Source: an uncultured Veillonellaceae bacterium (GTDB taxonomy: Bacteria > Bacillota > Negativicutes > Selenomonadales > Selenomonadaceae). From it: a DNA stretch of 41,989 nt. The translations under genes were made by a program, and so were the position numbers. Location: contig CADCIX010000024.1 of assembly GCA_902801565.1 (NCBI GenBank), positions 1 to 41,989 on the forward strand. The letters run 5' to 3'. This document shows, piece by piece, positions 7,064 to 25,059 of this stretch (position 1 is the stretch's first letter; each line of letters opens with the position of its first letter). The notes under the pieces are model-generated. The model searched no databases and was not told the DNA's origin. It was given only the letters and a program-made list of their open reading frames with translations.

Positions 7064-7092
7064 TTGACAAAAGGAATAAATTGCATTAATAT
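7064..7092 (+). promoter_or_regulatory. Strong predicted promoter of the mutase operon
   Basis: TTGACA (7064-7069), a 17-base spacer and TAATAT (7087-7092) make the best sigma70-like promoter in the window. Transcription would begin near 7100, just before the cobalamin aptamer, giving a leader of about 530 bases. Confidence 0.8.
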
Positions 7093-7104: not shown

Positions 7105-7400
7105 TGAATATGGTAGGGGATAGGTGTCCATAGGACTTAATAGGGAATCCGGTGCAGCATAGTCTAAGCCGGAGCGGTCCCGCCACTGTAGGGTGGAGTC
7201 TTGCACAATCATGTCACTGGGGTAGATATGCGTACCTTGGGAAGGCGTGCAATGCGGTGCCATCGGCGCTTCAGCGCCGCGAATGGCACCCATGCGAGAG
7301 CGTCCCGTGACAGCGAGCACGAAGTGCGAAGCTGGAACGGCTGACGCTTACCGCAGACGATGAAACCGAGCCAGGAGAACTGCCTGTTCCAGCATCACCG
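7105..7400 (+). ncRNA. Cobalamin riboswitch (adenosylcobalamin aptamer) with an enlarged peripheral domain
   Basis: The conserved parts of the cobalamin aptamer are present in order: GGTGTCC-ata-GGAC (7123-7136), AATAGGGAATCCGGTG (7139-7154), GCGGTCCCGCCACTGT (about 7174-7189), CACTGGG...GGGAAGG (about 7214-7245) and the B12 box GAGCCAGGAGAACTGCC (7368-7384). A helix TTGCAC (7201-7206) / GTGCAA (7247-7252) closes the middle region. Between that helix and the B12 box lies an insertion of about 100 bases with two extra hairpins. The aptamer identity is firm. The exact outer boundary (P1) is approximate. It sits in the leader of the adenosylcobalamin-dependent mutase genes. Confidence 0.92.
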
Positions 7401-7627
7401 TTGACCTTTGGCTTTGCCAAAGCGTCGTGCCTGCGAGCGATGGGTAGGGGATTGGATCTATGTATTGGGAGTCTCATGGCATAGATGCTGGTATAGTGGG
7501 ATGGTCTTGGAATCATCGAGGAAAGCAGCTTTGTTCCGGGGATACGATATGGACGGCAATCTGACTGCACGTTTGCAGGCGGGTTGCCGTTATTTTATTC
7601 CGAAAATTTCTGTGAGGAGGCTGTATT
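7401..7627 (+). promoter_or_regulatory. Long leader between the riboswitch aptamer and mutA (expression platform)
   Basis: This stretch holds no credible gene. It contains CTTTGGC-ttt-GCCAAAG (7406-7422), a hairpin ATCTATG (7456-7462) / CATAGAT (7480-7486), and a terminator-like hairpin at 7553-7590. The mutA ribosome binding site GAGGAGG lies at 7614-7620. How ligand binding is passed to the distal hairpin over about 150 bases is not evident from simple complementarity. Confidence 0.6.
7553..7600 (+). terminator. Terminator-like hairpin in the mutA leader
   Basis: ACGGCAA (7553-7559) pairs with TTGCCGT (7584-7590), and CTGCA (7565-7569) with TGCAG (7574-7578) inside. It is followed directly by TATTTTATT. 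It ends 27 bases before the mutA ATG and is the natural candidate for riboswitch-controlled transcription termination. Confidence 0.6.
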
Positions 7628-9826
7628 ATGAGCAATGAGACCAGTGGACAGGCATCGAGCGAGCTTGACCTTCAGGCCATCCTGAAGAAGGCCGAGCAGC
7701 AGACGGATTTCCCGGATGTGCCCCTTGACGAGTTCACACCGCCCACTTATGAGGAGTGGAAAGAGGCCTGTGTTGCACTTCTGAAGGGTGCTCCCTTCGA
7801 GAAGAAGATGTACACGAAGACCTATGAAGGCATCACTTTCGACCCCATGTATTTCCGGAAGGACACGGAGGATATCCTTCCGAAGGGTTCCTTCCCTGGC
7901 ATGGGGGATTTTCTGCGCGGTGCCCAGGAGAGCGGCTATGTGGGGAATCCCTGGGGCATCGCCCAGTCCTGTGACGAGACCATGCCGAAGGAGAACAATG
8001 AACTCCTTCGCCATGAGCAGGAAAAGGGCTCTACCATCTACAATATCCGGCTGGACAGCGCTACCCTGGCTGCCCAGGATGTGAGGGAGGCGGAGAAGCC
8101 CGGTGATGAGGGCGTTTCCGTGACCACCATCGATGACATGCATTCCCTGCTGGATGAGCTCAAGCTGGATTGGTTCCCCTTCTATATTTATGCCGGGGCA
8201 AGCGCAGTTCCCATGCTCGGTCTTGCCATGGGAAGCCTTAAGGCATCCGGCAAGGACCTGACGAAGCTCAAGGGATTCCTTGCAGCGAACCCCATCGGCG
8301 AGCTTGCAGAGCACGGGAAGAACGCTGCCTCGCTGGAAAAACTTTATGATGAGATGGCGGCCTGCGTGAAGTGGACGAAGAAGTATGCGCCGGGGCTCAA
8401 GACGATCTTTGCCCGGAGCGATGTCTTCAGCCGCGGGGGCGCGAACGATGTGCAGGAGGCTGCCTATACCCTTTCCATGGCGGTCTCTTATCTGCGTGCA
8501 CTCTTGGATCGCGGCATTTCCATTGACGATGCCGCAAAGCAGATCGTCTTCGGTTTCTCCATGGGGGCGAATTTCTTCCTGCAAATCGCAAAGCTCCGTG
8601 CGCTCCGTCCGATCTGGGCGCAGATTGTGGAGGCCTTTGGCGGCAGCAAGGATGCCCAGCGCATGCACATCCATGGAAAGCCCGCCCTTTTCTTCAAGAC
8701 GGTCTACGATCCCTATGTCAATATGCTCCGCAATACCACGGAGATCTTCTCCGGCGTGGTGGGGGGCCTCGATTCCTTCGAGAGCAGTCCCTTCGACGAG
8801 CCCATCCGCAAGGGAGACGAGTTCTCCCGCCGCATTGCCCGCAACGTGCAGATCATCCTGCAGGAGGAGTTCGGCCTTTTGCAGCCCATCGATCCGGCAG
8901 GCGGTTCCTGGGCGGTGGAAACTCTCACCAAGCAGATGAAGGAAAGAATCTGGGAGGAATTCCAGGCCATTGAGGCAAAGGGCGGCATTGTCAAGGCTCT
9001 GGAGGAAGGCTATCCCCAGGAGGCGATTTCCGGTGTGCTGGAATCCCGCTTCAAGGCGTCGGAACTGCGCCGCGACCGCATTGTCGGCAACAATATGTAT
9101 CCGAATATGACGGAGAAGCTTCTGGATCCCCGTGAGGAAGATGTGGAGGAGATCAAGAAGCAGCGCAAGGCCGATGTGGAGGCATACCTTTCCGATATTG
9201 ACGAGGCCTTCAAGTCCGAGAAGGTGAAGGCCCTCTCGGAAGCCAGGGAGGACCTGGTGGATGCGGCCATTGGCGCAGCGCAGGCGGGCGCTACTATCGC
9301 GGAGATCGCAAAGGCGCTTCACGAGGGCGGTCAGGAGGCAGAAAGTGTTGCCCCGATTGCACCTCATCGCTGGAGCGAGCGCTTTGAGGCCCTTCGGAAG
9401 ATCACGGAGGACTACAAGGCGGAGAAGAACGATAACGTGAAGATTTTCCTCGCAAATATGGGCCCCATCCCGCAGCACAAGGCACGGGCCGATTTCACCA
9501 CGGGATTCCTGCAGGTGGGCGCCTTCGAGGTGCTCGGCAACAATGGTTTCCCCACGGTGGACGAGGCTGCAGCGGCGGCAAAGGAGTCCGGGGCGGATGC
9601 CGTGGTCATCTGTTCCACGGATGCCACCTATCCCGAGATTGTCCCGGCACTGGCACCGAAGCTCCACGAGGCGCTTCCCAATGCCACGGTGTTCCTGGCA
9701 GGCGCTGCGCCGAAGGATCTTTTGGACACCTACAACCAGGCGGGCATTGACGACTACATTTCCGTTCGCGCCAACTGCTACAAGATCCTGCAGCTCCTGC
9801 AGAAGAAGAAAGGGATGATCGCATAA
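7628..9826 (+). CDS. mutA: Methylmalonyl-CoA mutase small (beta) subunit
   Basis: With MutB this forms the heterodimeric mutase that interconverts succinyl-CoA and (R)-methylmalonyl-CoA for propionate formation. The 732 residues comprise an N-terminal TIM-barrel domain (about 60-560) and a C-terminal flavodoxin-like domain (about 600-732). The cobalamin-ligand motif DxHxxG is missing: the matching position reads [12 protein letters not shown], as expected for the non-catalytic small subunit. GAGGAGG at 7614-7620 fixes the ATG. The stop codon overlaps the mutB start by one base (TAATG), so the subunits are made in a coupled way. A cobalamin riboswitch lies upstream. Confidence 0.94.
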
Positions 9827-12027
9827 TGGCAGCTTATACAAATCCTGATTTCACCACCATGAGCCTGCAGGATGCGCCGAAGTCGGATGCAAAAGAGTGG
9901 AGGAAGCTCTTCGAGGCGCAGGCAGGCGCGGAGTTTGATGCCCTCACGAAGCGCACCATGGAGCATATTCCCGTGAAGCCCTTCTATGACCATGAGGAAT
10001 ATGACCACATGAACCACCTGGATTTCGCCAGCGGCATCCCGCCCTGCCTCCGCGGGCCCTATTCCACCATGTACGTGTTCCGTCCCTGGACAGTGCGCCA
10101 GTACGCCGGTTTCTCCACGGCAGAGGAATCCAATGCCTTCTACCGCAGGAACCTGGCCGCAGGACAGAAAGGCCTTTCCATCGCCTTCGACCTTCCTACT
10201 CATCGCGGCTATGATGCGGACAACCCCCGTGTGGTGGGCGACGTGGGAAAGGCGGGCGTGTCCGTCTGCTCCATGCTGGATATGAACATCCTGTTTTCCG
10301 GGATTCCCCTGGACCAGATGTCCGTCTCCATGACCATGAACGGTGCGGTGCTTCCGATTCTGGCCTTCTTCATCCAGTCCGGTGTTGAGCAGGGCGTGGA
10401 CAAGAAGATCATGGCGGGCACCATCCAGAACGATATCCTGAAGGAGTTCATGGTCCGCAACACATACATCTATCCGCCGGATATGTCCATGCGCATCATC
10501 GGCGATATTTTCGAGTACACCACCAAGTACATGCCGAAGTTCAACAGCATCTCCATCTCCGGCTACCACATGCAGGAGGCCGGGGCGCCGGCGGATATCG
10601 AGCTGGGCTATACACTGGCAGACGGCCTGGAGTACATCCGCACTGGCATCAAGGCGGGACTTCCCGTGGATGCCTTTGCAAAGCGCCTGTCCTTCTTCTG
10701 GGCCATCGGCAAGAACTACTTCATGGAGGTGGCGAAGATGCGCGCCGCCCGCGTGCTCTGGGCGAAGATCGTCAAGTCCTTCGGAGCGAAGGATCCGAAG
10801 TCCATGGCTCTTCGGACCCACAGCCAGACTTCCGGATGGTCCCTTACGGCACAGGACCCCTTCAACAACATTTCCCGTACGGCCATGGAGGCCATGGGCG
10901 CAGCCCTTGGGCACACCCAGTCCCTGCACACCAACGCGCTGGACGAGGCCATTGCCCTGCCCACGGACTTCTCGGCCCGCATCGCCCGCAACACGCAGCT
11001 CTACATTCAGGACGAGACCAGCGTCTGCAAGATCATCGATCCCTGGGGCGGCTCCTACTATGTGGAAGCCCTCACCAACGAGATCATTCGCCGTTCCTGG
11101 GCGCATATCCAGGAGGTCGAGGCCTTGGGCGGCATGGCGAAGGCCATTTCCACAGGTCTTCCCAAGATGCGCATCGAGGAGGCAGCGGCACGCCGTCAGG
11201 CGCAGATCGACTCCGGCAACGAGACCATCGTGGGCCTCAACAAGTACCGCCTGGAGAAGGAGGATCCTCTGGAAATCCTCGCCATCGACAATACGGCGGT
11301 TCGCAATGCACAGGTAGAGCGCCTGGAGAAGCTCCGCCGGGAGCGCAACGAGGACGATGTCCGCGCAGCACTGGAGGCTATCACCAAGGCAGCGGAGAGC
11401 CGCGACAACGGCAACCTGCTGGAATGCGCCGTAGAGGCGGCAAGGGTTCGCGCCTCTTTGGGCGAGATCTCCGATGCGGTGGAGAAGGTTTCTGGACGCT
11501 ACCAGGCCATCATCCACACCATTTCCGGTGTGTACTCTTCCGAGTTCACGGACAAGACCGAGCTGGATAAGGCGCGGGGCATGGCGGATGAGTTCGAGAA
11601 GCTCACCGGCCGCCGCCCGCGTATCTTCGTCGCAAAGATGGGCCAGGACGGCCACGATCGCGGCCAGAAGGTCATTGCATCTTCCTTCGCCGACATGGGC
11701 TGGGATGTGGATGTGGGGCCGCTCTTCCAGACACCGGAGGAAACCGCCCAGGATGCCGTGGACAACGATGTCCACATGGTGGGCTTCAGTTCCCTTGCCG
11801 CAGGGCACAATACCCTGCTGCCGCAGCTTGTCGATGAGCTCAAGAAGCTGGGCCGTGAGGACATCATGGTCTGTATCGGCGGCGTCATCCCCGTGCAGGA
11901 TTACGACAACCTGTACCAGCATGGGGCCGTGGCAATCTTCGCACCGGGGACAAACATCCCTGAGGCCGGCATCAAGCTTCTGACCCTTCTCATGGATCGT
12001 GCCAAGGAGGAAATGGCTGAGGCATAG
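9826..12027 (+). CDS. mutB: Methylmalonyl-CoA mutase large (alpha) subunit
   Basis: This is the catalytic subunit, using adenosylcobalamin for radical carbon-skeleton rearrangement. At 733 residues it matches the family. The N-terminal (beta/alpha)8 barrel includes [13 protein letters not shown] and [19 protein letters not shown]. The C-terminal B12-binding domain carries the base-off/His-on motif GQDGHDRG with D608, H610 (the lower cobalt ligand) and G613, then [16 protein letters not shown] and VCIGGVIP. It overlaps mutA by one base. A hairpin follows before meaB, so the chaperone gene may be expressed at a lower level. No epimerase or decarboxylase gene is adjacent. Confidence 0.97.
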
Positions 12028-12118: not shown

Positions 12119-13306
12119 ATGGAGCAGAAATACACAACATCAAAGCCCAGCTGGGTGCCGGAAGAACCCAACGAGAAATTTGCCTGCTCCGTCATGAGCG
12201 GCATTGACGGCATCAAGGACACGACGGTGGGGAACATCAATCCGGCTCTCCAGAGCGGGAAGATGAAGCCGAAACGCCGCATGGTGCTTTCCGAGGATGA
12301 TTATGTGGAGGGCGTGGCGAGTGGTGACCGCATCACCCTTTCCAGGGCCATCACGCTCATTGAAAGCAACAGTCCCAGGCACTTCGCCAAGGCGCAGAGG
12401 GTTCTGCAGCGGCTGCTCCCGAGAACAGGAAAGGCGCTTCGCATCGGGTTCACCGGTGTGCCGGGCGCAGGGAAGAGCACCACTATTGAGGCCTTTGGCA
12501 ACATGCTTTGCGACGAGGGCCATCGGGTGGCTGTCCTCACCGTGGATCCCACCAGCTCTGTTACCAGGGGTTCCATCCTGGGGGACAAAACCCGCATGGG
12601 GACACTCTCCCGCCGCCCCGAGGCATTCATCCGCCCGTCTCCCGCCGGGGGGACTTTGGGCGGTGTGGCCAGGAAGAGCCGGGAGACCATGCTCATGTGC
12701 GAGGCAGCGGGCTATGATATCATCATCATCGAGACCGTAGGTGTGGGCCAGTCTGAGACCACAGTGCGGTCCATGGTGGATTTCTTCCTCTTGATTGTCC
12801 TTACGGGAGCTGGGGATGATTTGCAGGGAATCAAGAAGGGCATCATGGAGCTTGCAGATGCCATTGTCATCAACAAGGCGGACGGGGACAATCTGGTGAA
12901 GGCTAAGGTGGCCAGAGGAGAGTACGAGCGCATGATCGAGTACATCCGCCCTGCCACGCCCGGTTGGGCCACCCACGCTTATCTTTGCTCCGCACTGGAA
13001 AAGACAGGACTCAAGGAGCTTTGGCAGGTGATCCAGGCGTTCCAGAAGATGACGAAGGAGAGCGGTGTCTGGAAGAAGCGCCGGGATGGGCAGCTTCTGG
13101 ACTGGATGCACAGCATGATCGACGAGCATCTTCATAATCTTTTCTTTGAGGATGCCGTGGTGACGGGGCGCATGCCGGAGATTCGGGAGGCGGTGCTGAA
13201 GGGGACGATTTCCCCTACTCAGGCTGTGGCAGAGCTCATCAAGCTCTTTGATGTGAAGCGGGCCGCCATGCGGCAGGTGGATATCTTCCATCCCGAGCGG
13301 GAGTGA
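12119..13306 (+). CDS. meaB: Methylmalonyl-CoA mutase-associated GTPase MeaB (ArgK family)
   Basis: MeaB is a G3E-family GTPase that binds methylmalonyl-CoA mutase, gates loading of adenosylcobalamin and protects the enzyme from inactivation. Motifs seen are the P-loop GFTGVPGAGKST (about residues 110-121), DPTSSVTRGSILGDKTRM, ETVGVGQSE (switch II region) and the guanine-specificity motif NKADGDN. I chose the ATG at 12119 (395 residues) because AGGAGG repeats lie directly in front of it. An upstream in-frame ATG at 11999 would run inside mutB and through the hairpin. The product is longer than the usual 320-340 residues, with an N-terminal extension of about 60 residues. It follows mutB and precedes the MsrA-like gene by 9 bases. 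Confidence 0.92.
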   Translation: MEQKYTTSKPSWVPEEPNEKFACSVMSGIDGIKDTTVGNINPALQSGKMKPKRRMVLSEDDYVEGVASGDRITLSRAITLIESNSPRHFAKAQRVLQRLLPRTGKALRIGFTGVPGAGKSTTIEAFGNMLCDEGHRVAVLTVDPTSSVTRGSILGDKTRMGTLSRRPEAFIRPSPAGGTLGGVARKSRETMLMCEAAGYDIIIIETVGVGQSETTVRSMVDFFLLIVLTGAGDDLQGIKKGIMELADAIVINKADGDNLVKAKVARGEYERMIEYIRPATPGWATHAYLCSALEKTGLKELWQVIQAFQKMTKESGVWKKRRDGQLLDWMHSMIDEHLHNLFFEDAVVTGRMPEIREAVLKGTISPTQAVAELIKLFDVKRAAMRQVDIFHPERE

Positions 13307-13315
13307 GGGAAAGCT

Positions 13316-13879
13316 ATGTATACGAAAAAAATCTATTTTTCCGGCGGCGACTTTCACGAGCTGCAGGAGGTCTTCCGGGATCTGCCGGGGGTTGTGAGCA
13401 CCAGGACGGGATATATCAATGCCGAAGGCACGGCTGGCTTCGCCGCAGTTGCCTCAGGCGAAGTCAAGGCATACATGGGCGTTGAAGTGGTCTACAATCC
13501 GAAGAAAATGGATCTCTCCAAGCTCATGGACGTGCTCTTTGCAGTGGTGAATCCCTATGTCCCCGACGGACAGGGGAAGGCCCGGGGAGAGATGTATCGG
13601 GCAGGTGTATTCTATGCGGATGCGGAGGACGAGCCCCAGGTGGAACTGCATCTGAACTTCATCGCCAATCGTGGGAAGCCTCCGGCGGTTTCCTGCATTG
13701 GCCTCACCATGAACGATCCAAACAGCAATCCCAAGCTGGCCCGGCATTGCTACTGCCTGGCGGGGGAATTGAGGGCCTTTCTGGAGGCAGAGCCGGAGCA
13801 TCAGGAATATTTAGGGAAGAATCCGGGGACAGAGACATTCATTGATTTTGAAAAGCTGAGGGAATATGTGAAGTTTTGA
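13316..13879 (+). CDS. MsrA-family protein lacking the catalytic residues
   Basis: This 187-residue protein aligns by eye with peptide methionine sulfoxide reductase MsrA along its length: an N-terminal FSGGDFHELQEVF then PGVVSTRTGY, then VEVVYNP, MYRAGVFY and near the end EHQEYLGKNPGT, the counterpart of the conserved HQxYLxKNP. The catalytic cysteine of GGCFW is replaced by Asp12 (GGDFH), the active-site Glu of HAEAV falls at Met54, and the DxGxQYRS loop reads ARGEMYRA. It therefore should not reduce methionine sulfoxide by the known mechanism. Cysteines occur elsewhere (C127, C145, C147 as CYC). It is 9 bases after meaB, so a role linked to the mutase is possible. A retained binding role is inference. 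Confidence 0.75.
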   Translation: MYTKKIYFSGGDFHELQEVFRDLPGVVSTRTGYINAEGTAGFAAVASGEVKAYMGVEVVYNPKKMDLSKLMDVLFAVVNPYVPDGQGKARGEMYRAGVFYADAEDEPQVELHLNFIANRGKPPAVSCIGLTMNDPNSNPKLARHCYCLAGELRAFLEAEPEHQEYLGKNPGTETFIDFEKLREYVKF

Positions 13880-15035: not shown

Positions 15036-16517
15036 ATGGACGAACTGGATTTGCGGCGGATACCTGAGGCCAGCTATCTGAACACGGACAACACCTGGCG
15101 GTACCGATCAATCCTGCACTTCTGCTTCAAGCGGCATGAGCATATGCAGACCTATGTGTATCCGGAGGATATCTTTCACTACCTGAAGCAGGAGCCTCAC
15201 TTCCGGGACTATACCTTTGACCAGCTGGAGCAGGATCTGGCGGCTTTGTGCGACTGGAAGAACCTGATTCCCCATCAGGAGACCAGCCGTTCCAAGACCA
15301 TTGCAGATTTCAAGAAGAAGCGCTACCGCTACCAGTGCAGCCCCTACACCGTGGAAATAGAGCGCATGCTGGAAAGACTGCGAAGTGTTGGGGAGGAGTT
15401 CGGCGGTTCTTTGGAGACCACCCAGTTTGACCGGATTCTCCAGTGCCTGAAGAAGTTTCTCTTTCCCCAGGAGGAACTTCCTTCCCAGGAGCTCTATCAG
15501 ACCTGGCAGGATCTGGAGCATTATTTCCGCACACTGGTGCAGAATTCCTCGGACTACCTGGCTCACCTGAAAAGCGCCAAGGTGGAGGAGCGCATGCAGA
15601 CCACGGCATTCATTGTCTACAAGGATCGCTTCACCCAGTATCTCAGGACCTTTGTCGTTGGCTTGCAGCGCAGTGCCCAAAAGATGGAAAAACTCTTCCA
15701 GCAGAGCAATCCGGAGATGGAGGAACTCCTTTTTGTGCGGCTTGCTGATCATCAGATGACCATTGCCATCATGGGGGAGGAGCAGGACCGGCAGGGGTAT
15801 CTGGAGGATTTTCGGGAGAGCTTCCAGGTCATGCGGGAGTGGTTCCTGGGGACGGGTTACAGGGACAGCGAGCTTTCCGCCCTGTCCAGGGAGACGGTGG
15901 ACACCATCCGCCGCATTACGAAATTTGCTCAGCGTCTGGCGGAACAGCATCAGTCCTTCCGCAGCCGCAAGGCGGAGTTTTTGCATCTGGCCCGGTGGTT
16001 TGCCCAGCTGGATGACAAGGCCGAGGCGGATCTTTTGAGCGCTCTGGTCTTCGGTCCTGCGGGGGGACGCCATTTTTATGCAGAAAGCCGGGAAATGGAG
16101 GACTACACCAGCCGCATGGAAGAGGAGGCCCCAACTCTTCTACAGCTCGTCCCACGGGTCAGGACCTATCGTGAGCGGCAGCGGCAGACACCCATAAGGG
16201 AGCAGCGGGCGGCCAAGGAGGCAGCCAGAAAGGAATATCTTGCCCGCAGGCAGCAGCTTTCCGATTTGATGGAAGGCCTGGCCGTGGAGGGGGTCATTGA
16301 CTTTGAAAAGCTCCCCACCCTCTCCCGGGAGGCCAGGCAGATGCTCCTGGGCTGGGTGGTCCGGGCTCTGCACCGCAATCCCGTCAGCACGGAAATGGGC
16401 TTTGGTGTGGAGCTGGTTTATGATCCCAAGGAAAAGCGAAGGATTACGATTCACTGCGAGGACGGGGAGTTTGCCATGCCTCCCATGAAATTCAGATTGC
16501 ACAGAGGAAACGGATGA
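15036..16517 (+). CDS. jetA: Wadjet type I protein JetA (DUF2397/TIGR02677)
   Basis: JetA is the kleisin-like (MukF-like) subunit of the Wadjet condensin, which senses and destroys closed circular plasmids. The 493-residue protein has the family features: an N-terminal winged-helix region (WRYRSILHFCFKRHEHMQTYVYPEDI), a long helical centre (about residues 100-330) with TQFDRILQCLKKFLFP and LVQNSSDYLAHL, and a C-terminal winged-helix domain after a basic helix (TPIREQRAAKEAARKEYLARRQQ). AAGGAG precedes the ATG and an own promoter lies upstream. The stop overlaps jetB by four bases. The identification rests on the protein pattern plus the invariant four-gene order jetA-jetB-jetC-jetD. Confidence 0.9.
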   Translation: MDELDLRRIPEASYLNTDNTWRYRSILHFCFKRHEHMQTYVYPEDIFHYLKQEPHFRDYTFDQLEQDLAALCDWKNLIPHQETSRSKTIADFKKKRYRYQCSPYTVEIERMLERLRSVGEEFGGSLETTQFDRILQCLKKFLFPQEELPSQELYQTWQDLEHYFRTLVQNSSDYLAHLKSAKVEERMQTTAFIVYKDRFTQYLRTFVVGLQRSAQKMEKLFQQSNPEMEELLFVRLADHQMTIAIMGEEQDRQGYLEDFRESFQVMREWFLGTGYRDSELSALSRETVDTIRRITKFAQRLAEQHQSFRSRKAEFLHLARWFAQLDDKAEADLLSALVFGPAGGRHFYAESREMEDYTSRMEEEAPTLLQLVPRVRTYRERQRQTPIREQRAAKEAARKEYLARRQQLSDLMEGLAVEGVIDFEKLPTLSREARQMLLGWVVRALHRNPVSTEMGFGVELVYDPKEKRRITIHCEDGEFAMPPMKFRLHRGNG

Positions 16518-17722
16518 ATATGGAAGAAAAGGAAGAACTGCAGCAGGCGGCCAGGATTCTCATGGAAAACCGCTGGGTCACCCGCAGGGACATGCCGGAG
16601 GAGTATCTTTCGATACGCCGCCTGGAAAGACCTCTGCGGCAATTTTTTCGTGACAGGTGCGGCTGGCCCCTGCTGGTTACTGCCCAGTTCTACAAGCTGG
16701 AGAAAATCCCCGCAAGGCCCAGGGGCTTTATGGGCCTCAGTGCCATGCAAAGCCAGGAGGACTATGTGCTGCTTTCCTGTGTGCTGGCCTTTTTGGAGGA
16801 ATACGAGACGGGAGGGCAGTTCCTGCTGGGAGATCTGGCGGAGGCACTCCTTTCCTACTATCCCGAGGATGCTTTCACCAAGAAGCTCAGCTGGGAGGAC
16901 TATGGCTGGCGCAAGTCTCTGATCCGGGTGCTGAAGCTCCTGGCAGAAGAAGGCATGATAAACATCGTGGACGATGAAAGCGAGGGCTTTGTCTCCGGAG
17001 GAATCAAGGACGGTGTGGCAGCAGGGGAGGCTCTCTATGAGGTTACGGCCCTTTCTCGCTATTTCTTGCGGAACTTTCCCAAGGAATTGCAGCAGTACAA
17101 CAGACTCGCAGAGCTCATGGAGGCGGAATTCTTTACGGAAAGCACCGAAGAGGCACAGGCCGCTCGTCTGCGCCGCCAGCGGCTCTATCGGGAACTCCTT
17201 CTCTCCCCGGTGCTCTACAAGGGGGAGGATCCCTTGGATTTCCTTTATCTGAGGAACCGCCGGGAGCGCATCAGGAATGACCTGGAGGACTGGCTGGGGC
17301 TCCACTATGAGCTTTACCAGAATGCTGCTTTGGCAGTGTCCCATGAGCAGAATGCCTGGTTTCGGGATATTTTTCCCGTCAGGTTCCGGGGTATCCATGA
17401 CATTATGCTGCATCTTTCCCATTATCTGCGGCAGCTGCCGGAGGAGGCACTGGACCATGACCTGACGGCAGGGGAATGGAAGCAGCACCTGCAGGCTTTG
17501 ACGGAGGCTGTCAAGAGCGGCTGGACCAAGGAATACCGGGAAATGAGCCAGAAGCGCCTGTCGGAGGAACTGCTGGCAGAAATGGAGGACTGGGGCATGG
17601 CAGAGGTGCAGGAGGATGGTTCCATCAGGCTGCTGTCGGCCATCTTCCGCCTGGAGGGGGCCTATCCCGAGGATTATGGGCAAAAGGCAGAGGGAAGCGG
17701 CAAATCGGAGGAGAAGGCATGA
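16514..17722 (+). CDS. jetB: Wadjet type I protein JetB (DUF2398/TIGR02678)
   Basis: JetB is the MukE-like (KITE, tandem winged-helix) subunit that bridges kleisin and SMC in the Wadjet complex. The 402-residue product shows the DUF2398 pattern: an N-terminal QQAARILMENRWVTRRD, then FFRDRCGWPLLVTAQFYKLEK, EDYVLLSCVLAFLEEYETG and, in the second half, RLRRQRLYRELLLSPVLYKG with LHYELYQNAALAVS. It overlaps jetA (ATGA, 16514-16517) and its own stop overlaps the jetC start in the same way, giving tight translational coupling and presumably fixed subunit ratios. An alternative in-frame start two codons downstream cannot be excluded. Confidence 0.88.
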   Translation: MNMEEKEELQQAARILMENRWVTRRDMPEEYLSIRRLERPLRQFFRDRCGWPLLVTAQFYKLEKIPARPRGFMGLSAMQSQEDYVLLSCVLAFLEEYETGGQFLLGDLAEALLSYYPEDAFTKKLSWEDYGWRKSLIRVLKLLAEEGMINIVDDESEGFVSGGIKDGVAAGEALYEVTALSRYFLRNFPKELQQYNRLAELMEAEFFTESTEEAQAARLRRQRLYRELLLSPVLYKGEDPLDFLYLRNRRERIRNDLEDWLGLHYELYQNAALAVSHEQNAWFRDIFPVRFRGIHDIMLHLSHYLRQLPEEALDHDLTAGEWKQHLQALTEAVKSGWTKEYREMSQKRLSEELLAEMEDWGMAEVQEDGSIRLLSAIFRLEGAYPEDYGQKAEGSGKSEEKA

Positions 17723-20700
17723 GTGAAAACCGCTGGCAGGCCAACAGGGCCGGCATTTTGAACTATTGGTATTATGATGAGGCTGAGTTCCATTTCGCGG
17801 GCGGGCGGTTGCTGCTTCGGGGCAGCAATGGCTCAGGCAAGTCCGTCACCATGCAGAGCCTTGTGACTGTCCTGCTGGACGGGGTGAAGCGGGCGGACCG
17901 GCTGGACAGCTTTGGCTCCAAGTCCCGCACCATGGATGACTATCTGCTGGGGGAAAAGGAAATCAGCGAATACGAGGAGCGCACGGGCTACCTCTATCTG
18001 GAATACAAGCGGGAGAACAGCGACCAGTACATCACCACCGGCATCGGCCTCCATGCCCGCAGGGGCAATTCCAAGGTGGATTTCTGGGGCTTTGTGCTGC
18101 AGGATGGCCGCCGCATCGGGGAGGATTTCTTTCTTTATCGCCTGGGCAAGGACCCGGAAACAGGGGAGGAGCAGAAGCTGCCCCTGACCCGCCGGGAACT
18201 GGAAAACGCCATTGGCCAGGGAGGCCGGGTCACCACGGAACAGCGGGAGTACATGGCCATGGTGAACCAGTATGTCTTCGGCTTTGAGGATATTGGCAAG
18301 TATGAGGAACTGATGAAGCTCCTCATACAGCTCCGCAGCCCAAAGCTCTCCCGTGATTTCAAGCCCAGCGTCATCTACGAGATCCTGAATGAGTCCTTGC
18401 CCACCCTCTCTGATGAGGATTTGAGGCCTCTGGCGGAGACGCTGGAAAATATGGAAAAGACTCGTCTGGCCATCGAGCAGCTGAAGCGGGAGCAGGGAGC
18501 CTTTGAGGCTATCTGCAAGGCCTATACTGCCTATAATCGGGCGGTGCTGGCAGAGCGGGCTCTTGGGGAGGCGGAGTGTCGTCGGGCCATCCAGCGGCTG
18601 AAGGACCAGATTGGGGAGCAGGAGGCCGAACTTGCTCAGGCAGCCCGGGCAGCAGAAACTGCCAAGAATCGTCAGCAGGAGCTGACGGTGGAGGCCGAGG
18701 CCCTGCGCCGGGAACAGGGAGACCTGCAGGAGCACGAGGCCTACAAGGCGGCGGAGAAGAAAAAGGAAGCGGAAAGCCAGCTGGAACTGGAGACTGCCCA
18801 GCGGGCTCGCAAGGAGGAGACACTGGGGAAGATGCGCCGCCGGGAGCTGGAGCTGCAGGAAATGGCGCAAAAGGAAGAGGCGGAGATGGCCCGGCTGGAA
18901 GAACAGGCGGAAGAACTGCTGGAGGATCTGCTGTCCCTGGCGGAAGATGCGGATTTTTCTGCCCATAGAGCCTTGGTGCAGGGCTTTGGCCTGGGAAAGG
19001 CTGAGGCCGGAGAGCATTTCGCCCTATGGCAGCGGGAGCGCAAAGACCATCAGCAGCGCCTGCTGCAAATCCAGAAGGAGCTCCGAAGCTATGAGGAACA
19101 GGAGCGGACAGCCCTGCAGATGGAACGGGAACTTGGTGAGGAAAACCGCCATTTGGATGACTGCCGCCATGAGCACCGCCGCTTGCTGGAATCTCTGGAG
19201 AAGGCAAGGGAAGACCTGGTGAAGTCCTTCTACGAGTGGAAGCAGGAGACAGGGAATGCCCTGCCCCTGGCTAAGGAGGAGGAAATTCGTCTGACGGGAG
19301 CCCTGCGGGACCTTTATCAGGGCACTGACTGGATGGAAATCCAGAATCAGCTGAATGCCATCGTCAGCCAGCTGCAGCGGCAGCTGGACGCCCGCATTGG
19401 CAAGGTACGCCTGACACTTCAGGAAACCGGAGAGAAGGCGGACAAGGCACGGGAAGAGCTGCGTGTCCTGAAGGAAACAAAGGAGGCGGAGCCGGAGCTC
19501 TCCGAGGCCTGCCAAAGGGCTAGGGCGCAGTTGCAGGAGCAGGGTATTTCCTTCCTGCCCCTCTATGAGGCCACAGAATTCCGTTCACAGGTCACGGCGG
19601 AGCAGCGGGAGAGGCTGGAGTCCGCCCTGCTGGAGGCAGGGCTTTTGAATGCCCTGCTGCTGGAAAAAAATAAAACAGCCGTCGCCCTGCCGGAAGAAAT
19701 GCGGGGGGCGGTGCTCATGGCCGGGGAGCCGGTAATGCTCTCCGAGTCCCTGCTGGATTATCTGGAGCCGATGCCGGGAGAAAGCGGCCTGAAGGAGGAG
19801 CGCATTGCCGAGATTCTGGCTTCCATAGAAGTGAATGGAGACATGTATCGTCCGGGCAGCGGCATTTCCCTTAATGTCTCCCAGGGAGCCTATGCCCTAG
19901 GGAGCCTGGCCGGAAGGGCGGCGGAAAGGGAGAATGCCCTTTTTGTCGGCAAGCAGGCCCGTGAAGCTTATCGTCGCCAGCAGATCGGGGAAAAAGAGCA
20001 GGAAATCGCAGGGCTGGAAAGCGAGCTGGAGCAGGCCCATAGTAAGGAAGAGGGTCTGCTGGCAGAAAGTGCTGCCTTGCAGCAGGCCAGGGACCGCTTC
20101 CCAAGTCCTGCCCAGGCTCAGCAGGTCTATGAGGCAGTACGCAGCCGGGAGCAGGAAATAGAGCGCCAGGAACAGCGCATCCAGGCCAAGGAGGAGGCCA
20201 GAAAGGAACTGGCGGCGGTACTTTTGCAGGAACGAAAGAAGATACAGGAGCTGCGGGGAGAGACCAATCTTTCCTTTGCCTCTGCTGCCTATGAGGAGGC
20301 TTTGGGAGCTCTTTCCGAATACGGGGAAGGGCAGCACCGGCTGACCCTGCTGGACGCGGACTTTGCCCATACGGCGGAGCTTTGCCGCCAGCATCGGCAG
20401 GAGCGTGACTATGCTGCCGGGGAAGTGGATGTACTGAAAGGCGAGCTGCTGGACAAGGATATGATTCTCTCCAGGCTGACGAAGACCATTGAGGCTCTGG
20501 CACATCAGCTGGAGGAAATGGATGCTGCCGCCATTGAGGCTCGCATTGCCCAAGTGGTGGCAAGGCTTACAGCTATTCCCGGGGAGCTGGGCCGCATTTC
20601 CCAGGAACTGGGCCAGCGGGAGCATCAGCAGGAAAGCCTGACTGCCGGGCTGGAGCAAGTCCAGCGGCGCTGCCAGCTGTACCAAAGGCTGCTCGCAAGC

Positions 20701-21879
20701 TGGCAGGATCTGGTCAGGGCAGAGGAGCTGCGGAGTTTTGGGGGAGTGCTTGAGAAAAAGAGTCTCACGGAGCTCATGCAGGCCCGCAGGAAGGACAGGG
20801 AGACCACTCTGCTCGCTTTGGCCCAAAGGGTGGAAAAGCAGTATGCACTGCACCGGGACGAGATTGCCGAGTACCGCTTCTCCTTGAGGGAATGTCCTGA
20901 TGAAATAGGGGAGAGGCCGGAAATTGCCCCGGAGGACGAGGAGATATTCCTGCCCCGCTGGGAGGCTTTGCAAAATCAGGCCTCCCGTCAGCTGGCACTG
21001 ACGGAAACGGGAGGACGGCCCCTGTCTCCCTACGAGCAGCTGCTGGAGCTGGAGCATCATCTGGCGGAGCAGGAGAGCCTCCTGTCCGAGCAGGACAAGC
21101 AAATCTATCAGGAAATCATCATGAACAGCATTGGCCGCACCATCAGCGACAGGATTTATGGGGCCGAGGACTGGATCAGGAAGATGAACCGCTTGATGGC
21201 AGGCAGCGAGACATCCAGTGCCCTGAGGTTCCGGCTGGAGTGGAAGCCTCTCACCGGGGAAGAGGACCAGGAACTGGATACAGCCGAGCTGGTGGAGCTC
21301 CTTCATAGCGATCCGGAACTTATGAGGGAAGAAGACATGAAAAAACTGGAGGAACACTTTGCTCACCGCATCGGCAGGGCACGGGAGGAGGCTGAGGCAC
21401 AGGAAAAGGATGCCGAAGCCTTCCAGGCCTCCGTGCGGGCCCAGCTGGACTACCGTCGCTGGTTCCGCTTCCGCCTTTATTACGACAAGGGGGAGCAGAT
21501 CAAACGCCGGGAGCTTACGGACAAGGCCTTCTTCCGTTTCAGCGGGGGAGAAAAGGCCATGGCCATGTATGTGCCCCTCTTTTCTGCCGCCTATTCCCGT
21601 TATATGGATGCAGGGGCGGAGGCTCCCAGGCTCATCACCCTGGACGAGGCCTTTGCCGGAGTGGATGAGCAGAACATGCGGGACATGTTCCGGCTGGTGG
21701 AGCAGATGGGGTTCAACTACATCATGAATTCCCAGGCAGTATGGGGGGACTACGACGTGGTGCCCAGCCTCAATATCTACGAGCTGCTGCGTCCTTTGAA
21801 TGCAGGCTATGTGTCCCTGTTGCCTTACCACTGGGATGGCAGGGAAAAGAAGGTTATGCTGGAGGCAGAGGATGGATGA
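17719..21879 (+). CDS. jetC: Wadjet type I SMC-like ATPase JetC (TIGR02680)
   Basis: JetC is the MukB-like SMC motor that extrudes DNA loops. The 1,386-residue protein has an N-terminal Walker A GSNGSGKS (G35-S42), long coiled coils rich in Glu, Gln, Leu and Arg (about residues 250-620 and 730-1000) around a central hinge-like region, and C-terminal ABC signature FSGGEK (S1275-K1279) and Walker B LITLDEAF (D1309, E1310), then GVDEQN. Both ATPase halves appear intact, so the protein should be functional. The true start is the ATG at 17719, which overlaps the jetB stop; the frame remains open upstream to 17476 but that part lies inside jetB. It overlaps jetD by eight bases. Confidence 0.93.
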   Translation: MSENRWQANRAGILNYWYYDEAEFHFAGGRLLLRGSNGSGKSVTMQSLVTVLLDGVKRADRLDSFGSKSRTMDDYLLGEKEISEYEERTGYLYLEYKRENSDQYITTGIGLHARRGNSKVDFWGFVLQDGRRIGEDFFLYRLGKDPETGEEQKLPLTRRELENAIGQGGRVTTEQREYMAMVNQYVFGFEDIGKYEELMKLLIQLRSPKLSRDFKPSVIYEILNESLPTLSDEDLRPLAETLENMEKTRLAIEQLKREQGAFEAICKAYTAYNRAVLAERALGEAECRRAIQRLKDQIGEQEAELAQAARAAETAKNRQQELTVEAEALRREQGDLQEHEAYKAAEKKKEAESQLELETAQRARKEETLGKMRRRELELQEMAQKEEAEMARLEEQAEELLEDLLSLAEDADFSAHRALVQGFGLGKAEAGEHFALWQRERKDHQQRLLQIQKELRSYEEQERTALQMERELGEENRHLDDCRHEHRRLLESLEKAREDLVKSFYEWKQETGNALPLAKEEEIRLTGALRDLYQGTDWMEIQNQLNAIVSQLQRQLDARIGKVRLTLQETGEKADKAREELRVLKETKEAEPELSEACQRARAQLQEQGISFLPLYEATEFRSQVTAEQRERLESALLEAGLLNALLLEKNKTAVALPEEMRGAVLMAGEPVMLSESLLDYLEPMPGESGLKEERIAEILASIEVNGDMYRPGSGISLNVSQGAYALGSLAGRAAERENALFVGKQAREAYRRQQIGEKEQEIAGLESELEQAHSKEEGLLAESAALQQARDRFPSPAQAQQVYEAVRSREQEIERQEQRIQAKEEARKELAAVLLQERKKIQELRGETNLSFASAAYEEALGALSEYGEGQHRLTLLDADFAHTAELCRQHRQERDYAAGEVDVLKGELLDKDMILSRLTKTIEALAHQLEEMDAAAIEARIAQVVARLTAIPGELGRISQELGQREHQQESLTAGLEQVQRRCQLYQRLLASWQDLVRAEELRSFGGVLEKKSLTELMQARRKDRETTLLALAQRVEKQYALHRDEIAEYRFSLRECPDEIGERPEIAPEDEEIFLPRWEALQNQASRQLALTETGGRPLSPYEQLLELEHHLAEQESLLSEQDKQIYQEIIMNSIGRTISDRIYGAEDWIRKMNRLMAGSETSSALRFRLEWKPLTGEEDQELDTAELVELLHSDPELMREEDMKKLEEHFAHRIGRAREEAEAQEKDAEAFQASVRAQLDYRRWFRFRLYYDKGEQIKRRELTDKAFFRFSGGEKAMAMYVPLFSAAYSRYMDAGAEAPRLITLDEAFAGVDEQNMRDMFRLVEQMGFNYIMNSQAVWGDYDVVPSLNIYELLRPLNAGYVSLLPYHWDGREKKVMLEAEDG

Positions 21880-23137
21880 GGAACTTTTTCTGGAGGCTCG
21901 GGGCTATTTTGAGACACATCCGGTGCTGTTGAAGCTGGCCTGGGAATTTTGCCAAAAATATCGCAGCCTGGGACACTTCGGTGGCAGCTTAAAACTGACA
22001 AGGCTGGATATTGCCGGAGAGCGGGATGTTTCTGCCTACCTGCGGAGGGAGGTGCGTCGGGGTGACAGGCTCACCTATCGGGAATTTTCCGCAGCATGGG
22101 AAAGGACCCGCTTTGGCAGCCTGTCTTTGGAGGAGTTTCTGCTGGCCTTGATGCCCAAGGACTTTACATCTAAACAGGAAGAACGGAAAAGGGAAAAGAC
22201 CGTCCGGCAGACCATCTATGAAAGGCTGGCCGAGATTTGCAAGAGCGGCTCTGCTTTGGCCTGGCTGGAGGCATTGAAGTCCAGGGAATTGCGCCTGCCC
22301 CAGAGGGACTTCTATCAGAGGGAAGAGCTGCTTGTTGCCGTGGCCCGGGCCTTGGATAATCTGCCTCAGGTCTATGAAAGACTTCCTTTTTTTGCCAATC
22401 GGGTGACGGGCAGCCCTCACGGCCTGGATTTTGACCGGGAGGAGGGCAGGCTCTTTCTTCAGGCACTGGCCTTCCTTAAGGGAGAATCTGTGCCACGGGA
22501 GGCGGATGGGCGGACAGAGCTCCTGTATGCTTATCGTGTCCTTCGGGATGATATCCTGAACTTTGCCACCGTCTATGGCCTCACGGCCTATGATGAGGCG
22601 GGCAGGGAGATAGGGTACTGGCGGCAGGCTGCGGAGAATCTGTCCCCTCTGAATGTTCCCTTTCGGGAGATCGTACGGGCAGGGAAAATTCAGCCTCTGG
22701 CAGAATCGCCGGTCTATATTGTGGAGAACTCCGGAGTGTTTTCCGCCTTGCTGGACATCTTGCAGGAAAAGGGCAGAATCATCCCTCTGCTGGCTCTCCA
22801 TGGCCAGTTGAAGGCCGCTTCCTGGGTATTGCTGGACAAGCTTGCCGCAGGAGGCGCCAAATTCCTTTACGGAGGGGACTTCGATCCGGAAGGCCTGTCC
22901 ATTGCCAACCGTCTGCTGCAAAAATATTCTGGGGCCAGTCTTTGGCATATGACCTTGGCAGAGTACGACGAGGCCAGCCAGTCCCTGCCAGAGGAAAGAC
23001 TGAAGAAACTGCCGGAAAATCTCCACCTGGCATTGCAGCCACTGGCTGAGGCCATGCAGAAAAAGAAAAAAATCCTCTATCAGGAAAGCCTGATAGAGGC
23101 GATGGAAAGGGATTTGCTGGGGGAAGCTAAAGTTTGA
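21872..23137 (+). CDS. jetD: Wadjet type I nuclease JetD (DUF2399/TIGR02679, Toprim)
   Basis: JetD is the topoisomerase-VI-like endonuclease that cuts plasmid DNA once the JetABC motor stalls on a small closed circle. The 421-residue protein has an N-terminal basic, winged-helix-type half and a C-terminal Toprim domain. The Toprim glutamate lies in IVENSG (E285) and the metal-binding aspartates in GGDFDPEG (D336 and D338). GGAGG at 21861-21865 selects the ATG at 21872. The frame is open further upstream but only inside jetC. The gene ends overlapping the 3' end of the convergent LRR gene by 11 bases, with no terminator between them. Confidence 0.92.
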   Translation: MDEELFLEARGYFETHPVLLKLAWEFCQKYRSLGHFGGSLKLTRLDIAGERDVSAYLRREVRRGDRLTYREFSAAWERTRFGSLSLEEFLLALMPKDFTSKQEERKREKTVRQTIYERLAEICKSGSALAWLEALKSRELRLPQRDFYQREELLVAVARALDNLPQVYERLPFFANRVTGSPHGLDFDREEGRLFLQALAFLKGESVPREADGRTELLYAYRVLRDDILNFATVYGLTAYDEAGREIGYWRQAAENLSPLNVPFREIVRAGKIQPLAESPVYIVENSGVFSALLDILQEKGRIIPLLALHGQLKAASWVLLDKLAAGGAKFLYGGDFDPEGLSIANRLLQKYSGASLWHMTLAEYDEASQSLPEERLKKLPENLHLALQPLAEAMQKKKKILYQESLIEAMERDLLGEAKV

Positions 23138-24992
23138 GCTTGTCTCCCAAAAGTTCCAGGATATAAGCTGCAGCCATATTGAGCCCTTTGTTTATGCATG
23201 GCTTTAAAGATCTTTTTAGGGCGGTCTTGGAAAGTATATCGTATTTCAGAAAGTCCATCACCAGAGTCTCGTCAGAGGAGTTTATGATCTGCCTTATGAT
23301 TTTGCTGCCCATTTGTTCCAAGTAGTTCTCGTAAGGCGTATCTGCGAGGTTGCGTTTGGTCTTTAACATTTTTATGGTGAGGTCTATTTTTTCCTTGGAA
23401 CTTGAGACATCCTCAAAGCAGGAGGCATAGGTATCGTAGTCGAATTTTTCCTGATTCCAGGCAATATCTATGTAAAGGCAGGAGGCTCTTCTCAGGGATT
23501 TGGGAATGGTGATTTCATCCTTGACGTTGCCATCACTATCCAGCAGCACAATGACGGCCGGGTGCCAGAGAATGTTGGCGGTACCATCGACAAGACCCGG
23601 CGGCACGGCTTCGATGCCCCCTACCAGTCCCCGGGCCGTTCCTTCAAAAGCATATATTTTGGGCGTTTTTGCGGAGGTGAACATCAGGGCGCCCCGGCCC
23701 ACAATGTTTAGGGAGCGGGGGAGGGATATTTCCTGCAGTCCTGTAAAAAGAAAAGCATGTTCGCCAAGCATCCTGAGCTTTGGGGGAAGGGAAATCTCCT
23801 TCAGTTCAACGCAGTGGGCGAAGGCGTGGGAGCCAAGGTGCTCCAGGTTTTCGGGGAGATGTATTTTCTTTAGCTTCTTGCAGCACTCAAAAACTCCTCC
23901 ACGCTGGAAAGATGTGGCATCAGGAATTTCGGTAATATTGTCGCTGAGATCTATTTTTGCCAGTTTGCTGCAGTTCATGAAGGCTCCCTGATAAATTCGC
24001 GTGACACTGTCTGGCATGGAGACCGTGGTGAGATGCTTTTGTCCGGCAAAGGCCCGGCGCCCTATAATCCGGGTATTGTCAGGTATGGCATAGGAAGAAG
24101 CGGGTCTGCTTCCGGGATAGTAAAGCAGGGTGGCGCCGTCCTTAGAAAACACGACCCCGTCAATGTCTTTGTACAAAGCATGTCCCGTAAAATGGACAGC
24201 TTCCAGTCCCTCCCAGGTGGCGATATTATCCCATTTTATCCTCTTTTTTTCCATGGTAATGTTCAGGACCTTGCAAGGGCTGGAACAGTGACGTTTCCCG
24301 CGCATCATGCTGGCGGGAGGAATGATGGGGGTGGTGATTTCTGTGGGCATGTGATCATCGAAGGCATGCTTGGAGAAATGGGTTGTCGTGGGTTTTACGA
24401 AGACGGGATTGCTGGACATGACTTTGTAAAGGGTATTGCCAACATAGATGGGTTCCTGTTGTTCTTCCAGGTTCTCCAACCAGGCGGAGTTCTCGAAAGT
24501 GGAATCTTCGGGCTGGATTTCCTGGTTTTCGAAAATGATCTCACGACATTTTGTGTATTGAAAGGCCTTATGGGAAAGCTTCTTTATATCTTTTGGCACC
24601 GTAACCGTGTCTTCCCGCCCTGCGCACATGGCCAGGTAAAGCTCATGGTCCTTTTTCTTGTAAAGCATTTTTCCATCGGTGCTGAATTCCTTGTGCTTTG
24701 GTGACAAAAGGATTTCCTCAAGGTCGGGAAATGTCCTGTTTTCCAGACCGGATATCTTCAGGTCTGCGGGGATAATGATCTTCTTTACACCGGGATAGAT
24801 GTGGTCAGTATCTTTATGGAGTGATAACTGCTTTACAGGCATGTCATTTGCCTGGGCGGGAAATTCCACCTCATCCCCATAGTCCTTAAGGTTGATGATC
24901 TGATAGCAGGTATCCCTTTTTCGTCCGTCGTCCTCTGTGAGCTCGAAGACTGTGCCCTGATAGGTAAAATCGATGACCTTCTCTTTGCGCAT
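23127..24992 (-). CDS. BspA-type leucine-rich-repeat protein without signal peptide
   Basis: The protein has 621 residues. The central part (about residues 290-440) consists of BspA-type (LRR_5) repeats of about 23 residues, e.g. IPDNTRIIGRRAFAGQKHL, MPDSVTRIYQGAFMNCSKL, LPENLEHLGSHAFAHCVEL and LPPKLRMLGEHAFLFTGL. More diverged repeats occur earlier. The C-terminal 90 residues are helical (ENYLEQMGSKIIRQIIN, then AAAYILELLGDKLKL), resembling the helical tail of other Firmicute LRR_5 proteins. No signal peptide or membrane segment is seen, so it is probably cytoplasmic. GAGGAGG seven bases before the ATG at 24992 sets the start. Five 11-bp repeats lie in its upstream region. Function unknown; protein binding is a reasonable guess. 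Confidence 0.8.
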   Translation of the reverse strand: MRKEKVIDFTYQGTVFELTEDDGRKRDTCYQIINLKDYGDEVEFPAQANDMPVKQLSLHKDTDHIYPGVKKIIIPADLKISGLENRTFPDLEEILLSPKHKEFSTDGKMLYKKKDHELYLAMCAGREDTVTVPKDIKKLSHKAFQYTKCREIIFENQEIQPEDSTFENSAWLENLEEQQEPIYVGNTLYKVMSSNPVFVKPTTTHFSKHAFDDHMPTEITTPIIPPASMMRGKRHCSSPCKVLNITMEKKRIKWDNIATWEGLEAVHFTGHALYKDIDGVVFSKDGATLLYYPGSRPASSYAIPDNTRIIGRRAFAGQKHLTTVSMPDSVTRIYQGAFMNCSKLAKIDLSDNITEIPDATSFQRGGVFECCKKLKKIHLPENLEHLGSHAFAHCVELKEISLPPKLRMLGEHAFLFTGLQEISLPRSLNIVGRGALMFTSAKTPKIYAFEGTARGLVGGIEAVPPGLVDGTANILWHPAVIVLLDSDGNVKDEITIPKSLRRASCLYIDIAWNQEKFDYDTYASCFEDVSSSKEKIDLTIKMLKTKRNLADTPYENYLEQMGSKIIRQIINSSDETLVMDFLKYDILSKTALKRSLKPCINKGLNMAAAYILELLGDKLKL

Positions 24993-25059
24993 AAAGCGCC
25001 TCCTCTCCATCTATATACCGCTGTTCAGGTTTTGATTTTTTGATCATATTTGTTCTAGC

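Follow-up and report, generated by a model that had tools for sequence, protein, structure and literature searches.

In which direction does a cobalamin riboswitch act when the genes behind it encode an enzyme that depends on the same cofactor? This question is raised by the leader of mutA-mutB in a 41,989-nt stretch of DNA, hereafter the window, from an uncultured Veillonellaceae bacterium, a rumen-type member of the Selenomonadaceae. The first-pass annotation placed a cobalamin aptamer and a terminator-like hairpin in this leader and, considering it counterproductive to shut off a B12-dependent mutase with its own cofactor, suggested an activating ('ON') switch. According to the folding models and leader comparisons described here, the leader is very probably a class-typical cobalamin riboswitch that would turn mutA-mutB-meaB OFF by transcription attenuation.

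The mutA leader and the genes behind it

The aptamer is preceded by a promoter and followed, after a long leader, by the mutase genes:

7064..7092, + strand: sigma-70-type promoter TTGACA-N17-TAATAT (10/12 matches, 17-nt spacer)
7105..7401, + strand: cobalamin riboswitch aptamer (RF00174; 74.6 bits, E 1e-16)
7370-7384, + strand: B12 box GCCAGGAGAACTGCC, from the RF00174 match and the sequence, 258 nt ahead of the mutA ATG at 7628
7614..7620, + strand: Shine-Dalgarno sequence GAGGAGG of mutA, not part of the terminator stem
7628..9826, + strand: mutA, methylmalonyl-CoA mutase of the small-subunit type
9826..12027, + strand: mutB, large subunit of methylmalonyl-CoA mutase, carrying a DxHxxG motif and the B12-binding domain TIGR00640
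12119..13306, + strand: meaB, mutase-associated GTPase; the ATG at 12119 was picked as start for its Shine-Dalgarno sequence
13316..13879, + strand: msrA-like methionine sulfoxide reductase gene

The aptamer was the sole gathering-level family match in the window when this was scanned with cmscan (Infernal and Rfam). The match is full-length (model positions 1-189), the gathering score of the family being 31.5, and all the conserved core segments are intact, including CCCGCCACTGT. The earlier placement of the core (7139-7154 and 7174-7189), the B12 box and the pre-mutA hairpin is correct throughout, and the proposal of a cobalamin riboswitch ahead of an AdoCbl-dependent mutase operon holds: the aptamer is followed by genes for MutA, MutB with its B12-binding domain, and MeaB. 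The ligand is presumably AdoCbl or a related corrinoid. Given the position of the promoter, whose type and location are shared by most close relatives, the transcript would begin just ahead of the aptamer; no second promoter was found between the terminator (T2, below) and mutA.

The msrA-like gene is possibly the end of the mutA operon. A short way downstream of mutAB-meaB-msrA, the window holds a Wadjet type II set (15036-23137), complete by PADLOC models, which consists of JetA (DUF2397), JetB (DUF2398), JetC (MukB-like, 1467 aa) and JetD (DUF2399). At 23130-25010, on the - strand, a 627-aa protein with BspA-type leucine-rich repeats is encoded.

Post-aptamer module, antiterminator and terminator

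Between the B12 box and mutA, the leader contains the elements from which a transcriptional switch could be built:

7394..7399, + strand: 5' strand AUCACC of a P13-like helix, pairing with GGGGAU at 7447-7452
7428..7453, + strand: antiterminator 5' strand UGCCUGCGAGCGAUGGGUAGGGGAUU, which contains the 3' strand GGGGAU of the P13-like helix
7456..7486, + strand: small hairpin AUCUAUG...CAUAGAU between module and terminator, seen in sequence and folds, with counterparts in relatives
7552..7599, + strand: intrinsic terminator T2, a hairpin to about 7591 followed by a U-rich tail

The mutA leaders carry after the B12 box a module, AUCACCG...ACCUGCGAGCGAUGGGNAGGGGAU, with a conserved helix that is absent from the Rfam model. 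This helix is called P13-like because of its position, that of P13 after the aptamer. In 77 leaders with 34 distinct strand pairs, AUCACC and GGGGAU are 96% paired in register, and only 38-57% in controls shifted by one or two bases. The helix covaries among leaders (A-U/G-U/G-C and C-G/U-G/U-A, with A-U/G-C/C-G for the outer pair). These in-register counts were made directly, in place of an RNAalifold prediction on a MAFFT alignment of the module, which returned almost no structure because the gaps of the alignment misplace the strands. A by-eye search of the post-aptamer modules for an L5-L13 kissing contact revealed no single covarying L5 partner and gave no consistent answer. The repeat GGTAGGGGAT(A/T)GG, found at 7112 and 7443, could also allow the P13 strand to compete for P1, but this candidate was set aside because relatives do not share the repeat. 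In the leader L068, the module occurs twice between about 290 and 120 nt ahead of mutA (CGAGCGATGGGGATGGGGATT and CGAGCGATGATTAAAGGATTG), and the second copy matches the T2 arm CAATC.

The terminator-like hairpin just ahead of mutA proved to be a strong one: the region 7538-7600 folds at -27.3 kcal/mol (z -5.4, no shuffle equally good), with UUAUUUUAUU coming next. Another terminator, T1 (CUCCGGCUU...AAGCCGG-U), is present in many relatives and absent in the window, so that leaders bear one or two terminators. In T2, the 5' arm and the apex (7555-7581) are complementary to 7428-7453 at -26.1 kcal/mol, a value reached by 1 of 2000 dinucleotide shuffles, and the two regions are the best partners across the whole leader.

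The competition between these structures was followed by energy folding of the nascent chain, with a locked P13-like helix taking the place of bound ligand. When the helix is left free and the chain extended to T2+29/+32, the probability of the antiterminator is 0.66/0.63 and that of the terminator 0.00/0.03. With the helix locked, the antiterminator falls to 0.00 at both lengths and the terminator rises to 0.38/0.72. The window's antiterminator takes over only once the nascent chain reaches about 7580, which makes the decision window short. Since the P13-like helix and the antiterminator share a strand, and the locked helix frees T2, the leader is built like an OFF switch: an intrinsic terminator stands before the start codon, and the antiterminator excludes both this terminator and the helix that the ligand should stabilise.

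Related leaders and other cobalamin riboswitches

The first-pass annotation had proposed looking for covariation between the 3' region of the aptamer and the hairpin in related leaders; across mutA leaders, it is the P13 strand of the post-aptamer module that covaries with the terminator. Among 22 non-redundant mutA leaders, the matched pairs of module and T2 are more complementary than re-dealt ones (z -3.5, p 0.0006, kinship being ignored). Examples of P13 strand and T2 are GGAUUG/CAAUCU in the window, GGAUC/GAUCU in L118, GAUGGAA/UUCCAUC in L081 and GGAUUGAG/CUCAAUCU in L134. In the folding model, the pairing of the T2 arm with the module has a probability of 0.33-0.80 with the helix free and of <=0.19 with the helix locked in 22 of 24 mutA leaders, the short-chain case of the window aside. 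Three leaders deviate at the length used: the window, L067 and L073 switch only once the chain is a few nucleotides longer, and L067 does so late. In L066, which has the other terminator, T1, no pairing between module and T2 appears in the model.

The same rule of complementarity applies to 15 non-mutA cobalamin riboswitches of the family (z -3.3, p 0.0013, kinship again ignored). This set includes two of the four further RF00174 matches in the bacterium's own genome:

L001: riboswitch upstream of cbiK
L002: riboswitch upstream of cobI, behind which lies a BtuF/BtuC-like transport operon (B12-type ABC transport genes)
L003 (locus L145, G000:C31:8000-16100): riboswitch ahead of two small ORFs that match no Pfam or NCBIfam family and, after them, a dnaX-like gene
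L004 (locus L146, G000:C12:20500-27900): riboswitch ahead of an AstE/AspA-like hydrolase, a MATE exporter and a nickel/peptide-type ABC transporter

The terminator-type switches on cbiK and on cobI with the btu-like genes show the same module and the same complementarity between P13 strand and terminator as the window. They control supply genes, where one would expect the product to repress, whereas the target in the window is a B12-dependent mutase. As for L004, the combination of AstE/AspA-like hydrolase, MATE exporter and ABC transporter is a possible unusual corrinoid or cobalt regulon.

A second leader type has also been observed, in which a long-range pairing GAACTGAATG...CATTCAGTTC after the riboswitch encloses a terminator, and the loop region of the next terminator hairpin keeps (G/A)TGGAAG. 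It occurs in the mutA leaders L079, L080, L082, L085-L087, L089, L091, L093, L095, L104, L115, L120, L124 and L141, and also in L003. This arrangement could be a further regulatory element; an Rfam scan of L003, L079 and L095 gave no family beyond the cobalamin aptamer.

Leaders of mutA with a cobalamin riboswitch are widespread in the Negativicutes. Within Selenomonadaceae, 55 of 80 named mutA loci have one at most 700 nt upstream, while the other 25 have none in the available sequence, which is incomplete for some of them. In a class-level sample, it is present at all 13 inspected mutA loci outside the family (L157-L169) and at a divergent mutA inside it (L170). This wide distribution makes the pairing of riboswitch and mutA an old one in the class. 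Tandem cobalamin riboswitches lie within 1.2 kb upstream of mutA at three loci, two of them confirmed with Rfam (L066 and L079) and one recognised by motif (L082). An in-frame TGA in the mutA of seven probable Veillonella genomes was discarded as a peculiarity, since it is the natural stop at the 3' end.

One of these switches has already been characterized. The cobalamin riboswitch of Veillonella parvula mutA is one of 38 functional switches, 37 of which have a predicted terminator, and in B. subtilis it repressed a GFP reporter in response to corrinoids (PMC9600662). In periodontal metatranscriptomes, a cobalamin riboswitch has been noted ahead of the large mutase subunit in Veillonella transcripts (PMC7160235). 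The V. parvula switch and that of the window both belong to Negativicutes, target mutA and have an RF00174-type aptamer, and the probable Veillonella loci L160-L166 share the anatomy of the window. Unlike Veillonella, the window has a single terminator (T2) far from its aptamer, one arm of which is enlarged. A mutA cobalamin riboswitch that represses a reporter is thus already on record for V. parvula, and the switch of the window is an ordinary one.

Direction of control and its meaning

The mechanism that these data point to can be described as follows. Without ligand, 7428-7453 would pair with T2 along its 5' arm and apex, and the polymerase would read into mutAB. When AdoCbl or a related corrinoid is bound, the aptamer would stabilise the P13-like helix, removing the antiterminator strand, so that T2 could fold and transcription would end ahead of mutA. 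We infer that ligand binding stabilises this helix, as it does in known members of the class, and the strength of the effect in vivo is likewise inferred.

The aptamer of the window has a peculiarity that bears on whether it senses the ligand at all:

about 7254-7358, + strand: structured insertion of ~103 nt in the variable aptamer arm (-61 kcal/mol, z -5.5)

This insertion could weaken ligand binding or alter affinity, and if it damaged the aptamer, the leader would be blind to the ligand and T2 would be a constant attenuator. It is present in a single copy in the genome and is the only match among the 21 genomes searched (its own and 20 relatives), the closest relatives lacking it in a by-eye comparison with L065, L066, L067 and L073; in addition, the aptamer has the lowest score of the five cobalamin riboswitches of the genome (74.6 versus 83.8-111.1 bits). 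A blind leader is nevertheless quite improbable, as the core is intact, the score is far over the cut-off, and module and terminator have been retained. Moreover, the P6 accessory region of cobalamin riboswitches is highly variable (PMC9600662), and the mutA aptamers of L078 and L043 carry other insertions.

The ON switch, in which the ligand would favour read-through and the mutase would be made when its cofactor is present, has physiological plausibility as its only direct argument, together with precedents of other kinds. In the eut system of Enterococcus, a cobalamin riboswitch is tied to B12-dependent catabolic genes, and an ON outcome is reached indirectly via an antisense RNA. A comparable ON outcome via antisense RNA is known in Listeria, in the account given within PMC11575231. 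Both resemble the window in linking a cobalamin riboswitch to B12-dependent catabolic genes, but no antisense layout is seen in the window. In Xylanibacter, mutAB is upregulated with cobalamin, although no riboswitch is nearby (PMC11575231), indicating that the logic differs between phyla. Against activation, the state that frees the terminator is the one holding the helix that the ligand should stabilise; this helix does not block T2 in silico, but raises its probability from 0.03 to 0.72 at T2+32. The logic is identical in the switches on B12 synthesis and uptake genes, and the V. parvula mutA switch represses (PMC9600662). The suggested activating switch is therefore not supported and is very unlikely. 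The same low probability applies to a leader that activates the mutase in the native cell, for instance through an inversion of the coupling by the enlarged aptamer arm or some other factor, which would go against both the in silico and the Veillonella evidence. Taken together, the OFF anatomy and the repression in V. parvula make the argument that repression by the own cofactor is counterproductive an unsafe guide to direction.

Translational control, by which the switch would hide the ribosome site of mutA, is hardly credible: the Shine-Dalgarno sequence lies within the leader and the full-leader MFE fold pairs part of the region after T2, but a strong terminator with a U-rich tail precedes it, and relatives keep the terminator while its distance to the ATG varies.

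With transcription attenuation as the preferred reading, the riboswitch that the whole class keeps on a B12-dependent enzyme looks like an ordinary OFF switch, its likely direction being settled on anatomical grounds. It now becomes testable why bacteria that use this mutase for making propionate should lower it at high cofactor supply. A plausible purpose would be to raise the mutase when the cofactor is scarce, holding the holoenzyme steady, and to let the mutase share a regulon with B12 supply. If holoenzyme homeostasis is true, mutase activity would stay flat while the protein level drops with cobalamin.
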